Shown one piece after another: positions 6,839-11,842 of a DNA stretch of 51,114 bases; the stretch's first letter is position 1, and each line of letters starts with the position of its first letter. The notes below the pieces were generated by a model. It was not told where the DNA came from and made no database searches. It was given only the letters and a program-made list of their open reading frames with translations. The translations under genes were made by a program, and so were the position numbers. Origin of the DNA: an uncultured Pelagibacteraceae bacterium (lineage in GTDB: Bacteria > Pseudomonadota > Alphaproteobacteria > Pelagibacterales > Pelagibacteraceae); assembly GCA_902559635.1 (NCBI GenBank), contig CACEIY010000004.1, forward strand, positions 1-51,114. The letters are read 5' to 3'.

Positions 6839-7219
6839 ATGGAAAATATAACTAAAAAACTTCAGCTAGTTTTACTATCAATAATTCTTTTAAGTACGGT
6901 GATAGCTGTAGGAATAGAAATAAAAACAATGTTAATTAATCAATCAGTTACCTTAGCTGACTTGTTATTAATGTTTCTATACTTAGAGGTGATGGCTATG
7001 GTAAGAATTTTTTGGGCTCAACAATCAATAAGTATAACTTTACCTCTTTTAATTGCGATTACTGCTTTAGCTCGATTTATTATATTACAAGGAAAAGAAA
7101 TGGATCCAGCAGCATTAGTTTATGAAGCTATTGCTATAGTTTTAATTGCAGCTGCAATAGTAATTTTAAGACTAAGACACAGCGACAAATTGGGTCTCAA
7201 GAAAAAAAAATCAAAATAA
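6839..7219 (+). CDS. Phosphate-starvation-inducible PsiE-like membrane protein
   Basis: Four TMs, FLYLEVMAMVRIFW, ITALARFIILQGKEMDP. Confidence 0.82.
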   Translation: MENITKKLQLVLLSIILLSTVIAVGIEIKTMLINQSVTLADLLLMFLYLEVMAMVRIFWAQQSISITLPLLIAITALARFIILQGKEMDPAALVYEAIAIVLIAAAIVILRLRHSDKLGLKKKKSK

Positions 7220-7225
7220 ATTAAT

Positions 7226-8371
7226 ATGAGATTTGAAACTTCGAGGGCTAAGGCCTTAGATCAATTAAATAATTTTGTCGAAAATAATCTTTCAGAATAT
7301 TCTAAATTAAGAAACTTTGATTTTGGACCTAATATCAGATCTAATATTTCTTGTCTATCTCCTTACATTACTCATGGAGTAATCAATGAACTAGAGGTAA
7401 TTAAAACATCTCTAAATAAATTTTCTTTTGCAAAAAATGAAAAATTTATTCAAGAAGTATTATGGCGTGTCTATTGGAAAGGTTGGTTAGAATTAAGACC
7501 AAATGTATGGTCAGATTATTTGATAGAATTAAACCAAATTAAACTAGAGTATAAAAATAATAAAAATTATCTAAAGGCTAAAGAGGGAAAAACCAATATA
7601 GAATGTTTTGACAACTGGATAATGGAACTTAAAGAACATAATTATCTCCATAACCACACAAGAATGTGGTTTGCAAGTATTTGGATATTTACCTTAGAAT
7701 TGCCATGGCAATTAGGAGCGGAGTTTTTTATGAAACATCTTTATGATGGAGATGTAGCTTCTAATACTCTTGGTTGGAGATGGGTAGCTGGGATACAAAC
7801 TAAAGGCAAACATTATCTTGCTAGTGAATGGAATATTAAAAAATTTACTAATAATAGATTTCAAAATATTAAACTCAATGAAAAATCTCCTCCAAAAATA
7901 TCTAAAAAAACTTATTCAGTAATAAAAGAAGATTTTAATAATCCTGAAAATCTTCAAGAAAAAGATCTAATCATTTTTGACAATAATTTATCATTTGAAA
8001 TTTCTAATTTTAAAAATAAAAAATTTAGAAAAATTTTTTTAGTTTGCAATAAAAATGAAAAAAGATTTATAAAACTTAGTGAAAAAGTATTAAAATTTAA
8101 ATCTCTATTAATTGAAGATCAAAAAAAAAGATTAGAAAATAAATCAATTAATTGTGAAATTATTGACATAGAAGAAATAAAAAACTTTAAAGAAGAAATT
8201 TATGCGCTTTATCCAAATATCAGTGAAAATTTAGATTTTATTAACTCTAACAGTATAAATAATATTAAATTTTTATATAGAGAACTTGATCAATATTCTT
8301 GGCAATATTGTAATAAAGGTTTTTTTAATTTTAAAAATTATATACCAAAATTAATTTCAATATTTAATTAA
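7226..8371 (+). CDS. Photolyase/cryptochrome-type FAD-binding domain protein lacking the N-terminal antenna domain
   Basis: Starts directly in the FAD domain: NFDFGPNIRSNISCLSPYITHGVI...QEVLWRVYWKGWLELRP...HNHTRMWFAS...DGDVASNTLGWRWVAG. Confidence 0.85.
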   Translation: MRFETSRAKALDQLNNFVENNLSEYSKLRNFDFGPNIRSNISCLSPYITHGVINELEVIKTSLNKFSFAKNEKFIQEVLWRVYWKGWLELRPNVWSDYLIELNQIKLEYKNNKNYLKAKEGKTNIECFDNWIMELKEHNYLHNHTRMWFASIWIFTLELPWQLGAEFFMKHLYDGDVASNTLGWRWVAGIQTKGKHYLASEWNIKKFTNNRFQNIKLNEKSPPKISKKTYSVIKEDFNNPENLQEKDLIIFDNNLSFEISNFKNKKFRKIFLVCNKNEKRFIKLSEKVLKFKSLLIEDQKKRLENKSINCEIIDIEEIKNFKEEIYALYPNISENLDFINSNSINNIKFLYRELDQYSWQYCNKGFFNFKNYIPKLISIFN

Positions 8372-8589
8372 AACCACCTAATCATTCCAAGAATGCCTGC
8401 CGTTGCATAAAAAAATTGCAATAACAATATTCCCTTGTGGTCACCTCTATAAGCCCAAATTCCAATTAAAATTGCTGATAAAAGCAATAAACAGAAACCA
8501 AAAAATTCTATTCCAATATTTAATGCCACAAACAATGAATAAAGAATTGCAGTAATAACACCTGCCCATTCAAAAATTTTATTATTCAT
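8368..8589 (-). CDS. Small membrane protein of unknown function
   Basis: 73 aa, about three TMs; last gene of a minus-strand run. Confidence 0.6.
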   Translation of the reverse strand: MNNKIFEWAGVITAILYSLFVALNIGIEFFGFCLLLLSAILIGIWAYRGDHKGILLLQFFYATAGILGMIRWF

Positions 8590-8613
8590 AAATCTTATAG
8601 AAATTCCCCATAT

Positions 8614-8763
8614 TTATTCTAGCTCATATTTTTTTTGTTTTTTTCTATTGTAAATTTTTTTTTTATTTTGAATTATCTTGTTTCGTAACATTGGCTCTCT
8701 AAGTAATTTCGCTATTGGATTTTTCTTATTTAATTTTTTTTTCTTTTTTTTCCTAATTTTCAT
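8614..8763 (-). CDS. Small Lys-rich protein (possible DUF7230-like family), not in supplied ORF track
   Basis: Manual translation MKIRKKKKKKLNKKNPIAKLLREPMLRNKIIQNKKKIYNRKKQKKYELE*; ATG overlaps the upstream TGA (ATGA). Confidence 0.68.
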   Translation of the reverse strand: MKIRKKKKKKLNKKNPIAKLLREPMLRNKIIQNKKKIYNRKKQKKYELE

Positions 8764-9479
8764 AACATTTTTTTAAAATTATCATAAAGAACCTCTGAAT
8801 AATTATTCATATCAGAAATATTTTCATTAGCAGCTTGATTAAATTTTTCTAAAGCACCATCTCCCAATTGATCTTCAAGAGCTTTTTTATACTCTGGAAC
8901 ACATCCCCACTCATTAACTGTAGTATCTTTAATTTCGATATGAAATTGAATACCATAAGCATGATTTTGATATTTAAAAATTTGATATTTAGTGACAGGT
9001 GATGAAGCTAACAAAGTAACATCTTTATTATTTTCTATTCCTTGAACCTCATATGAATGCCATTGTAAACTTTTAATTTTATCTGGGAATTTTGAAAATA
9101 AATCATCTTGATTTTTTTCTTTGGTAAAATTTATATCCATCATACCAATTTCAGCTGGACTAGACTTCACTACTTTACCACCAACTACTTCACCTAATAA
9201 CTGACAACCTAAGCAAAAACCTAAATAAGGTTTTTTTAGATCTACTACAAATTCTTTAATTCTTTTTTTTTCTTCAATTAACCAAGGGTATTCTTTTTCC
9301 ATATAAGTATCCATTGGACCACCCATACAAAACATTCCATTAAATTTACTTAAATCTCTTGGAATTTTTTCTCCTTCGTCTAATTCAATGGTAGTTAAAT
9401 TTAATCCTTCGGCCAGCATTAAATCTTTAATATAACCAGGATCTTCAATTTTAATATGTTGTAAAATAATAATATTCAC
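8760..9479 (-). CDS. Type 1 glutamine amidotransferase (GATase class I)
   Basis: GMFCMGGPMDTY, PYLGFCLGCQLLG nucleophile, YGIQFHIEI; GTG start. Confidence 0.92.
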   Translation of the reverse strand: MNIIILQHIKIEDPGYIKDLMLAEGLNLTTIELDEGEKIPRDLSKFNGMFCMGGPMDTYMEKEYPWLIEEKKRIKEFVVDLKKPYLGFCLGCQLLGEVVGGKVVKSSPAEIGMMDINFTKEKNQDDLFSKFPDKIKSLQWHSYEVQGIENNKDVTLLASSPVTKYQIFKYQNHAYGIQFHIEIKDTTVNEWGCVPEYKKALEDQLGDGALEKFNQAANENISDMNNYSEVLYDNFKKML

Positions 9480-9485
9480 TAAACA

Positions 9486-9614
9486 TTAACTTAGCTTAGA
9501 ACACTTCTTTGAACAATATTTTACTCTATACCAATTCAGCTTCCATTTCTTTCGCCAAACAAAAGATCTTTTACAAACAGAGCAAATTTTAGAAGGTAGG
9601 TTTTCTTTTTTCAC
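9486..9614 (-). CDS. DUF2256-type Cys4 zinc-ribbon small protein, not in supplied ORF track
   Basis: Manual translation (GTG start) MKKENLPSKICSVCKRSFVWRKKWKLNWYRVKYCSKKCSKLS*; CxxC...CxxxC; 1-nt overlap with the photolyase stop. Confidence 0.85.
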   Translation of the reverse strand: MKKENLPSKICSVCKRSFVWRKKWKLNWYRVKYCSKKCSKLS

Positions 9615-11104
9615 TAAATTGTATTTTGTTTAATAAATTTATCAGCCTCAAATAGAATTAATTTTTTTCTATCTTTTTTCATTTTATCAAAAATACGAAC
9701 CATCATTGACAATCTTGGGTTTGTTAAAAAAAATTTTCTATTTCGATCAATAAATCTCCAATACAATCCATCCATTGTGTTACACCAGTCACCCTTTTTA
9801 AAATCCATCATTTTCATAAAATAACTTGATCCACAGATGTAAGGTTTCGTAGCAAAAATTCCCCCATCACTAAATAAACCCATACCATAAACGTTCGGTA
9901 CCATTACCCAATCAGAAGAGTCTACGAACATCTCCATAAACCACTTGTAAACAATTTTTGGTTTAATTTCACAAAGGTTCATAATGTTTGATAAAATCAT
10001 CAATCTTTCAATGTGATGAGACCATCCATGATTCATAGCATTCCTAATCGCATGGTCTAATGGTGGTAAGCCAGTTGTTCCTTGATACCAAGAATTTTTC
10101 ATTTTTCTATTTTGATTAAAGAAATTTTTATTTTCCATTTCATCAGAATAACTTTGATAAATACCTCTCATAAACTCCCTCCAACCTATTACCTGACGAA
10201 TATAACCTTCTAGTGAGTTCATTCTTATTTTATTTTTTTTATGAAAAACTAAAATTTTCTGAATTATAAATTCAGGAGTTATCAAACCTAAATTAATATA
10301 AGGACTTAAAGCACTGTGAAATAAAATATTGTCCTTTTGATTAACTGCATCTTCATAGTCACCAAATAAATTTGATTTTTCTTTAATGAAAAAATTCAAA
10401 AGTTTGACTACATCACCATATTCTGTAGCTAACCAAAAATTATTTGTACTTCCAGGATGTTTTTTAAATAACTTTTCAACAATTGGCTTTAATTTTTTAG
10501 TATGACTAGTCTCGTTAATTTTTGGAAATTTTGGAATTGAAATATCTTTTGGTAACTTATTTCTATTATCTTCATCAAAACTCCATTTGCCACCTACTGG
10601 ATTTCCATCAGCACCCATTAATATTCCAGATTTCTTTCTAATTTCTTTATAAAATGAAGCCATAAAAGGCTTTTTTGATTTTTTTAAATAATGTTTAAAT
10701 TCATCTCTAGAATTTAAAAACATCGGTGTTTGAACAATATTCCAATTAATTTTTTCTTTTTTTAAAAACTGTGAAATTTTTTTTTCAAAAAATTTATCTT
10801 CAACTTCAAAACTACTAATTTCTGTTATGTTTTTTTTTGTAATTATCTTTTTTAATTTCTTAAAATAATCATTTTTAAAATTATTTTCTTCAATTTTTAA
10901 ATAATCTAATTTAAATTTATTTTTACTAAGACTATCTGCATAAGATCGCATAGAAGATAAAAATAGTAGTATTTTTTGCTTATGATGTTTTTCATAGGTA
11001 CATAATCCATTGTCTTCTGCCATAAAAAACAGGTGGTCCTTTTTGAAGCGGTCGAGGTATTTTAATGGAAATAATTGATTACCAAGTATAAAAAATAATT
11101 TCAT
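9614..11104 (-). CDS. Cryptochrome/photolyase-related protein (PhrB/FeS-BCP-like family)
   Basis: FFILGNQLFP, WREFMRGIYQSY, NHGWSHHIERLMILSNIMNLCEIKP, DSSDWVMVPNVYGMGLFSDGGIFATKPYICGSSYF; ATG at 11104 preferred over the TTG at 11110. Confidence 0.93.
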   Translation of the reverse strand: MKLFFILGNQLFPLKYLDRFKKDHLFFMAEDNGLCTYEKHHKQKILLFLSSMRSYADSLSKNKFKLDYLKIEENNFKNDYFKKLKKIITKKNITEISSFEVEDKFFEKKISQFLKKEKINWNIVQTPMFLNSRDEFKHYLKKSKKPFMASFYKEIRKKSGILMGADGNPVGGKWSFDEDNRNKLPKDISIPKFPKINETSHTKKLKPIVEKLFKKHPGSTNNFWLATEYGDVVKLLNFFIKEKSNLFGDYEDAVNQKDNILFHSALSPYINLGLITPEFIIQKILVFHKKNKIRMNSLEGYIRQVIGWREFMRGIYQSYSDEMENKNFFNQNRKMKNSWYQGTTGLPPLDHAIRNAMNHGWSHHIERLMILSNIMNLCEIKPKIVYKWFMEMFVDSSDWVMVPNVYGMGLFSDGGIFATKPYICGSSYFMKMMDFKKGDWCNTMDGLYWRFIDRNRKFFLTNPRLSMMVRIFDKMKKDRKKLILFEADKFIKQNTI

Positions 11105-11131
11105 AAACAAATATAACTAATAAAAAATTTG

Positions 11132-11842
11132 ATGTCAGAAAAATATCTTATTTTGGGTGCGACAGGATCTATCGGATCAAATTTAGCTCAACAATTAAAA
11201 AATTCGGGATATGATATTCACTTAATTGCAAGAAATGAAAGTGAGGTTAGTTCAATTGCAGAAAAACTAAAATGTACTTACACAGTTGCTGATGTTCTCG
11301 AAGAAGGTTTTGTAGATAAAGTTAAAGCAGATATTGATGATATTAAAGGTCTTGCTTATTGTGTAGGATCGATAGATTTAAAACCTCTGAGAATGGTTAG
11401 TGAAGAAGATTTTAATAAATGTATGAAATTAAATCTTTATTCAGCAGTTGATGTTATCAAAGGATATCAAGAAAGTTTAAAAAAAAATAAAGGCTCAATA
11501 GTTTTATTTTCAACAGTTGCTGCTCAAAGAGGATTTACAAATCATGCTATTATAGCTTCAACAAAAGCTGCTGTGGAAGGATTAACAGTATCTCTAGCAG
11601 CAGAATTTGCCCCTAACATTAGAGTAAACTGTATAGCTCCAAGTTTAACAAAATCTAAAATTGCAAAACCTATGCTTAAAAATAATGTAATAGCAGAAGG
11701 CATCGCAAAAGCTCATCCATTAAAAAGGTTAGGGGAAGGAAGAGACTCTGCTTCTCTAGCTAAATTTTTAATTACTGAAGATAGTTCATGGGTTACAGGT
11801 CAAATAATTGCTGTAGATGGAGGGAGATCAAAATTATCTTAG
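11132..11842 (+). CDS. SDR family oxidoreductase
   Basis: GATGSIGSNLA Rossmann motif, ASTKAAVEGL active site, ITEDSSWVTGQIIAVDGGRS. Confidence 0.93.
   Translation: MSEKYLILGATGSIGSNLAQQLKNSGYDIHLIARNESEVSSIAEKLKCTYTVADVLEEGFVDKVKADIDDIKGLAYCVGSIDLKPLRMVSEEDFNKCMKLNLYSAVDVIKGYQESLKKNKGSIVLFSTVAAQRGFTNHAIIASTKAAVEGLTVSLAAEFAPNIRVNCIAPSLTKSKIAKPMLKNNVIAEGIAKAHPLKRLGEGRDSASLAKFLITEDSSWVTGQIIAVDGGRSKLS

Follow-up and report, generated by a model that had tools for sequence, protein, structure and literature searches.

The photolyase locus and its genes

The window, a 51,114-nt stretch of DNA from an uncultured Pelagibacteraceae bacterium, carries a photolyase cluster of a SAR11-type ocean bacterium (Table 1). 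All open reading frames were found where the original prediction had placed them, and its gene coordinates, overlaps and starts proved exact to the base. The photolyase gene starts with the ATG at 11104, and its stop codon shares 1 nt with the GTG start of the DUF2256 gene (TAGTG). The GATase gene begins, also with GTG, 6 nt past the DUF2256 stop and is overlapped by the gene for the 49-aa protein via ATGA, while on the opposite strand the 3' end of the FAD-domain gene runs 4 nt into that for the membrane protein.

Table 1. Features of the photolyase locus (window coordinates)
Feature	Position	Strand	Remarks
NewPHL/Phr7-type photolyase	7226..8371	+	381 aa; FAD domain N-terminal, alpha/beta domain C-terminal
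Small membrane protein	8368..8589	-	73 aa; weak PnuC-like match, E=0.03
Lys-rich protein, apparently divergent ArfA-like	8614..8763	-	49 aa; aligns with ArfA-family protein of G158
Class I glutamine amidotransferase-like protein (GATase)	8760..9479	-	PF00117, E=3.6e-21
DUF2256 zinc-finger protein	9486..9614	-	42 aa; PF10013, E=1.6e-17
Prokaryotic (6-4) photolyase, DPRP/PhrB family, Fe-S-less subgroup	9614..11104	-	496 aa; PF04244, E=1.7e-65
Candidate promoter-like CTGACA-17-TATATT	11138-11110 (gap 11105..11138)	-	about 5 nt before photolyase ATG
Short-chain dehydrogenase (SDR)	11132..11842	+	PF13561, E=3.6e-46; head-to-head with photolyase

The larger photolyase scored above the cut-off with both PF04244 (DPRP, 221 bits) and PF03441 (FAD_binding_7, 41.5 bits) and matched the (6-4) photolyase 5kcm/4dja over its full length (E~1e-81). 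H365 and H366 (PhrB numbering), which we take to be the active-site histidines, were invariant in 146 aligned sequences, the window photolyase included. Judged by its family, the enzyme would repair (6-4) photoproducts in light. The Fe-S ligands of PhrB (C350/C438/C441/C454) are represented by P, gap, gap and N, leaving none of the four cysteines of FeS-BCP proteins. All 56 sequences devoid of these cysteines grouped together, separated from the others by a bipartition of support 1.0.

The convergent gene encodes a photolyase with PF03441 at residues 74-198, which aligns with E. coli photolyase from residue 201 on; the FAD/CPD-site residues E274, W277, N341, D372, D374 and N378 of the latter are kept as E77, W80, N143, D174, D176 and N180. 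Its FAD domain lies at the N-terminus with no antenna domain in front of it, as in NewPHL/Phr7/SPL proteins. In the AF2 model, an alpha/beta domain was well predicted at residues ~240-381 and the FAD part was modelled poorly; Foldseek gave no clear assignment, and the C-terminus is a candidate Z-domain. A circular permutation, with the antenna domain moved to the C-terminus, was dropped, because HHalign found no similarity between the C-terminal domain and antenna domains and the NewPHL/Z-domain description already suffices. According to a passage of PMC9426592 (citing its ref. 48), NewPHL/Phr7 relatives repair CPDs in single-stranded DNA, and the same activity would be expected of the window protein as a family member.

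The probable start of the SDR gene is the ATG at 11132, which leaves 27 bp between it and the photolyase start. The -35-like box of the candidate promoter in the divergent gap overlaps the SDR start codon. The match (10/12) belongs to a kind whose count in the region was not above that in shuffles; its TATA columns were invariant in 10 relatives.

Conserved core and variable passengers

In SAR11 relatives, the conserved core consists of the SDR, the (6-4) photolyase–DUF2256 pair and the convergent NewPHL-type photolyase, an order that recurred in about 24 of the 30 SAR11 contigs that were fetched independently. The NewPHL-type gene was a convergent neighbour in 26 of the 30 SAR11 DUF2256 loci and the SDR, a conserved neighbour of the core, was present in 27; SDRs of 45-49% identity also adjoin the photolyase in L072, L076, L078 and L082. 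The GATase and the membrane protein were encoded in only nine of the 30 loci each and the 49-aa protein in three, and in two loci (L104 and L105) the GATase gene lay outside the block, beyond the SDR. These three genes are variable passengers of the cluster.

The original prediction of a unit rather than chance neighbours thus holds in part: both photolyases form a conserved unit with DUF2256 and the SDR, while the passengers, which it had counted as partners, are missing from most copies. Of the co-occurrence it proposed to check in SAR11 and other bacteria, that of DUF2256 with photolyase was recovered (also between unlinked genes), as was that of the SDR within SAR11, but that of the GATase in only a minority of SAR11 copies. 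It had further been proposed that all genes from 8368 to 11104 make up one light-response operon. Starts and stops do overlap along one strand, and in the sister genome G158 an ArfA-like gene overlaps the photolyase; however, the patchy presence of all three passengers and the displaced GATase genes make such an operon very unlikely.

As for the 49-aa protein, it has no Pfam match of its own, PF03889 included. It aligns with a 35-aa protein of G158, which scored 32.8 bits with the ArfA profile PF03889 (cut-off 25.5) and also matched ArfA chains in the PDB. Compared with the ribosome-rescue factor ArfA, the 49-aa protein is short of two residues of the KGKGS stretch. From this alignment it looks like a divergent ribosome-rescue factor, which we call ArfA-like rather than ArfA, and its candidacy as a photolyase partner was abandoned.

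Association of DUF2256 with photolyases

The DUF2256 protein scored 63.8 bits against its profile (cut-off 25) and possesses both the CxxC and CSxxC motifs. C11, C14, C34, S35 and C38, together with W20, R21, K23, W24 and W28, were invariant in 45 members; the window protein is basic (14 K/R in 42 residues). The family is placed among the FCS-like zinc fingers of the TRASH clan (PMC4047054), which corrects the earlier label of zinc ribbon, and it ranks with the commonest domains in bacterial proteins no longer than 50 aa (PMC11796252). Our literature search returned no function for DUF2256 or DUF2805 and no link between DUF2256 and photolyases.

DUF2256 and DPRP were strongly associated. Among 240 alphaproteobacterial genomes, 61 contained DUF2256, 68 DPRP and 58 both (p=3e-41), and the association persisted when unlinked pairs alone were counted (p=3e-25), the two genes being unlinked in 31 of the 58 genomes. 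The corresponding numbers were 66, 66 and 57 in a Pseudomonadota sample of 299 genomes, and 41, 40 and 38 in 128 Bacteroidota (p=1.6e-26). Over these three samples, Fisher p values computed on plain genome counts ranged from 1e-26 to 1e-42. Both families were also present in the control genomes of Synechococcus elongatus and Caulobacter vibrioides (current name of C. crescentus). When no DPRP was found in the flanks of DUF2256 (fetched up to 6 kb), it was encoded elsewhere in 21 of 28 genomes. In several phyla DUF2256 adjoins the photolyase gene, mostly on the same strand and often with an overlap of 1 nt or 4 nt; no fusion of the two was present among 216 DUF2256-bearing frames. The gene accompanies Fe-S and Fe-S-less photolyase clades alike and stays adjacent in the latter. 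Both families are common in marine surface lineages.

Exceptions occurred in both directions. DPRP was present without DUF2256 in 10 of 68 (Alphaproteobacteria) and 9 of 66 (Pseudomonadota sample) genomes. In DPRP-less genomes, DUF2256 can abut CRY-DASH (L336, L346) or come after NewPHL (L351), and another FAD_binding_7 photolyase was found in 18 of 21 DUF2256-positive DPRP-less genomes, compared with 28 of 54 genomes with neither gene (p=0.008). Only a few genomes (G109, G688) contained DUF2256 and no photolyase that we could find. DUF2256 also occurs in lambdoid-type viral contigs without photolyase. A first search of named phages was empty, and a viral-contig query gave only two matches, both with E=0.9. 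The DNA flanking the viral-contig gene matched two unannotated Klebsiella phages (only 77% over 17%), and no match in E. coli genomes appeared at megablast sensitivity.

A third family, TIGR03643/DUF2805, co-occurred with DUF2256 in 33 of 38 Bacteroidota and 18 of 20 Alphaproteobacteria. Twelve Acinetobacter plasmids matched, and in 11 of them photolyase, DUF2256 and TIGR03643 formed one cassette; in the window bacterium, TIGR03643/DUF2805 is encoded elsewhere in the genome. Its sequence looks HTH-like, and the protein would belong to the same set as photolyase and DUF2256.

Proposed role of DUF2256 and comparison with known systems

The explanation that we consider likely as a whole is that the conserved genes make up a photorepair unit for UV lesions, in which DUF2256 is an accessory to the (6-4) photolyase and the cargo genes are passengers. 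For DUF2256 itself, the most likely role is that of a zinc-finger accessory dedicated to (6-4) photolyases, presumably acting through direct binding. One strand encodes the Fe-S-less photolyase and, in an overlapping frame, the basic zinc finger. Both may be made together; DUF2256 could then bind the photolyase, lesion-bearing DNA or both, and might make native-cell repair more effective while being dispensable for catalysis. The (6-4) photolyases of S. elongatus and Caulobacter show activity when expressed in E. coli (PMC9178010, PMC12082625), where our control search found no DUF2256, which argues for an accessory rather than a catalytic role. More tentatively, prokaryotic (6-4) photorepair may commonly be multi-component, comprising photolyase and a dedicated zinc-finger subunit, DUF2256, and in many marine and plasmid-borne cases TIGR03643/DUF2805 as a further small protein of DNA-binding-like character, with the "single-enzyme" photolyases representing an extracted catalytic core.

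Other roles can be imagined for DUF2256. As a regulator or signalling partner, it would report the state of the photolyase or the lesion to transcription. This would suit a small basic zinc finger, often unlinked to the photolyase gene, with a companion that appears HTH-like, and the cryptochrome-like RsCryB of R. sphaeroides, of the same photolyase family, does regulate photosynthesis genes (PMC9178010). However, DUF2256 has no effector or output domain, and the tight overlaps with photolyase in several phyla favour a stoichiometric partner, so we regard a regulator as unlikely. A factor that equips FeS-type photolyases with their [4Fe-4S] cluster or antenna might be suspected in a Cys-rich protein that co-occurs so strictly with, and lies beside, an Fe-S enzyme family. 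Such a maturation role is highly improbable: the Fe-S loader is largely ruled out by the clade that lost the four cysteines and retains DUF2256 in adjacency, and E. coli makes an Fe-S photolyase without DUF2256 (PMC9178010), although an antenna or flavin variant is less directly excluded. Finally, both families might meet merely in sunlit, aerobic habitats, as their shared frequency in marine surface lineages would allow. That they lack any functional link is nevertheless scarcely credible, since about half of the tested genomes with neither gene (see above) carry other photolyases, so exposure to light is not by itself enough for DUF2256 to be present, and since overlaps, plasmid cassettes and such strong statistics would not be expected.

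For the zinc-finger accessory, the link of DUF2256 and DUF2805 to (6-4) photolyases provides a concrete, testable role for both families. It suggests that photolyases long studied alone lack their natural partners, a point relevant to how SAR11-type and other bacteria of the surface ocean survive UV. Retention of DUF2256 in the Fe-S-less clade separates the question of its function from that of the [4Fe-4S] cluster.

What is new here is the link of DUF2256 to the (6-4) photolyase family; the photolyase itself belongs to a known Fe-S-less subgroup. It is a full-length homologue of PhrB, RsCryB, CryPro and FeS-BCP, with His365/366 and Trp390 kept. W342, Y391 and Y395 of PhrB are replaced by Y, F and F, so its electron chain differs. 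Loss of the Fe-S ligands is shared with PromaPL of Prochlorococcus ("subgroup M"; PMC9178010, PMC9426592). The convergent protein resembles NewPHL, Phr7 and short photolyase-like proteins in its N-terminal FAD domain, alpha/beta C-terminus and want of an N-terminal antenna (PMC9426592), and shares only ~31-33% full-length identity with Novosphingobium and Ruegeria plasmid homologues. The top Foldseek matches of DUF2256 were to YacG on gyrase and to an FCS finger (none better than E=0.5); a four-cysteine zinc-finger pattern is shared and YacG is the nearest fold, although the match is weak, and YacG is a gyrase inhibitor whereas DUF2256 is tied to photolyases in genomes. Photolyase genes are likewise adjacent to or co-transcribed with others in the Prochlorococcus MED4 nudix-photolyase, E. 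coli phr and Synechococcus PCC 7335 PHR operons (PMC9649867); the accounts consulted mention neither DUF2256 nor TIGR03643. Compared with the known prokaryotic (6-4) photolyases, the SAR11 members share a unit with DUF2256, SDR and NewPHL.

Gene layout and its conservation in SAR11

All genes named in the original prediction, together with their overlaps, were confirmed in the sequence. The stop codon of the photolyase gene shares one base with the start codon of DUF2256 (TAGTG), the GATase gene starts 6 nt past the DUF2256 stop, and an ATGA overlap joins it to the gene for the 49-aa Lys-rich protein. The short-chain dehydrogenase (SDR) gene, whose likely start is the ATG at 11132, stands head-to-head with the photolyase gene, 27 bp apart (24-28 bp in relatives). 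Directly upstream of the photolyase ATG lies a promoter-like CTGACA-17-TATATT, the TATA columns of which are invariant across ten relatives; its -35-like box extends into the start codon of the SDR gene. A scan found no enrichment of such matches in the region, so the element counts as a candidate promoter only. The position of its -10-like box, about 5 nt upstream of the ATG, suggests a leaderless transcript.

Features in the window and in compared loci
Feature	Sequence	Positions	Strand
PsiE-like membrane gene	window	6839-7219	
NewPHL-type photolyase gene	window	7226-8371	+
Gene for 49-aa Lys-rich protein	window	8614-8763	
DUF2256 gene	window	9486-9614	-
Prokaryotic (6-4) photolyase gene	window	9614-11104	-
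Divergent gap	window	11105-11131	
SDR gene	window	11132-11842	+
ArfA-like gene, second SAR11 genus	L094	6572-6679	
DUF2256, viral contig	L262	6001-6120	
Photolyase-DUF2256-TIGR03643 cassette	L352, Acinetobacter schindleri plasmid p1AsACE	3474-5404	

Of 30 SAR11 contigs fetched via DUF2256, 27 carried the SDR gene, 26 the photolyase gene (a second method gave 27) and 26 NewPHL. The order SDR / photolyase-DUF2256 / NewPHL recurred in about 24, so the proposed cluster is indeed more than a chance neighbourhood. Its outline was drawn too generously: GATase (9/30), the membrane gene (9/30) and the ArfA-like gene (3/30) are variable, and in loci L104 and L105 GATase is located beyond the SDR, on its other side, from which it follows that the unit is smaller than predicted. 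The PsiE-like gene, a few bases upstream of NewPHL, was also found in 15 of the 30 loci. In other Alphaproteobacteria, SDRs beside the (6-4) photolyase or DUF2256 were 45-49% identical to the SAR11 SDR (L072, L076, L078, L082) or matched it with 177-191 bits (L338, L345).

The encoded proteins

The minus-strand photolyase is a full-length prokaryotic (6-4) enzyme (PF04244, hereafter DPRP; PhrB structures E~1e-81). It lacks the Fe-S cysteines, PhrB C350/C438/C441/C454 being replaced by P, gap, gap and N. Members with and without the cluster separate completely (support 1.0, n=165 family members), and the window enzyme is consistent with the already published Fe-S-less 'subgroup M' (PMC9178010) and PromaPL (PMC9426592).

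The plus-strand photolyase begins at the point that corresponds to the onset of the FAD domain in E. coli photolyase, retains FAD and lesion-site residues in the alignment, and has a C-terminal alpha/beta domain in the AF2 model. These features fit the NewPHL/Phr7 type, which has been described as combining an N-terminal FAD domain with a C-terminal Z-domain and as acting on single-stranded DNA (PMC9426592).

The DUF2256 protein is a clear PF10013 member by profile search. The core of this family is nearly invariant: K-x-x-LP-x-K-x-C-x-x-C-x-R-P-F-x-W-R-K-K-W-x-x-x-W-x-x-V-x-Y-C-S-x-x-C. The family has been placed in the TRASH clan (PMC4047054). The nearest solved folds to the protein (AF2 model, pLDDT 87) are weak matches, namely YacG bound to gyrase and an FCS zinc finger.

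The 49-aa protein falls below the ArfA Pfam cut-off. Its relative in the sister genome G158, whose gene overlaps the photolyase gene, exceeds the cut-off and also matches ArfA chains in PDB; both can be aligned over NPxAxxL...P...I...K..RKK, and the window protein thus resembles ArfA in sequence. In two SAR11 genera, ArfA-like genes adjoin the (6-4) photolyase at different positions; this may be coincidence, or UV damage and ribosome rescue may be connected. The 73-aa product is a small membrane protein assigned to no firm family.

DUF2256 is genetically coupled to (6-4) photolyases

The prediction was right about DUF2256: 58/61, 57/66 and 38/41 DUF2256 genomes also carried DPRP in three samples. 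Among 240 evenly drawn Alphaproteobacteria, 61 had DUF2256, 68 DPRP and 58 both (p=3e-41). Corresponding numbers were 66, 66 and 57 in 299 Pseudomonadota, a sample overlapping the former, and 41, 40 and 38 in 128 Bacteroidota (p=1.6e-26). These p-values ignore shared ancestry, although the alphaproteobacterial sample spans many families. Only 25 of the 58 alphaproteobacterial pairs lay within 2 kb, and unlinked pairs alone gave p=3e-25. Neighbouring genes were mostly on the same strand, in either order, frequently overlapping. In 21 of 28 further genomes without DPRP in the fetched DUF2256 flanks, including Chloroflexota, Actinomycetota and Verrucomicrobiota, DPRP was located elsewhere.

When DPRP was absent from DUF2256 genomes, another FAD_binding_7 photolyase was present in 18/21, versus 28/54 genomes with neither gene (p=0.008). 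DUF2256 overlapped a CRY-DASH gene in G516, and came next after CRY-DASH in G604 and after NewPHL in G594. Marine Bacteroidota loci (L203, L217, L239) contained three or four photolyase/cryptochrome genes in a run with DUF2256, the HTH-like TIGR03643 (DUF2805), and flavin reductase or SDR. TIGR03643 appears as a third partner: DUF2256 occurred in 33/38 TIGR03643-bearing Bacteroidota (p=7e-18) and 18/20 such Alphaproteobacteria (p=3e-10). In the window's own genome TIGR03643 is on a separate contig (G000:C36). On plasmids of Acinetobacter, photolyase, DUF2256 and TIGR03643 make up a cassette of 1.9 kb, which 11 of the 12 matching plasmids carry in full.

DUF2256 was also observed in other settings. 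Lambdoid-type viral contigs from IMG/VR (L253-L281) carry a distinct lineage (40 residues; for example in L262) close to genes for recombination; the stretches fetched contained no photolyase. Unlinked copies on plasmids of Thioclava (L354) and Agrobacterium vaccinii (L356) lie 5 nt upstream of an SOS response-associated peptidase gene, and close to an error-prone polymerase operon. One streamlined genome, 97% complete (G109; L092 on contig C6), contained DUF2256 and matched TIGR03643 at a score under the cut-off, and no photolyase of any kind was found in it.

Possible role and relation to known systems

DUF2256 accompanies Fe-S and Fe-S-less enzymes alike, and therefore it is not there for the Fe-S cluster. 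(6-4) photolyases produced in E. coli are repair-active on DNA (PMC9178010, PMC12082625), and no DUF2256 was found in the E. coli control genome; catalysis there thus does not require it. DUF2256, a small basic zinc finger, probably binds either the photolyase or damaged DNA, if not both, and would contribute to lesion search, access or turnover in the native cell. The main rival to such a repair role is signalling, in favour of which RsCryB, of the same photolyase family, is a regulator.

In open-licence PubMed Central papers, we found neither DUF2256 nor TIGR03643 tied to photolyases. Compared with PhrB, the tryptophan/tyrosine chain of the window photolyase is changed (W342, Y391 and Y395 to Y, F and F). 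The parts are of known kinds, and the new element is the partnership of DUF2256 with the photolyase.
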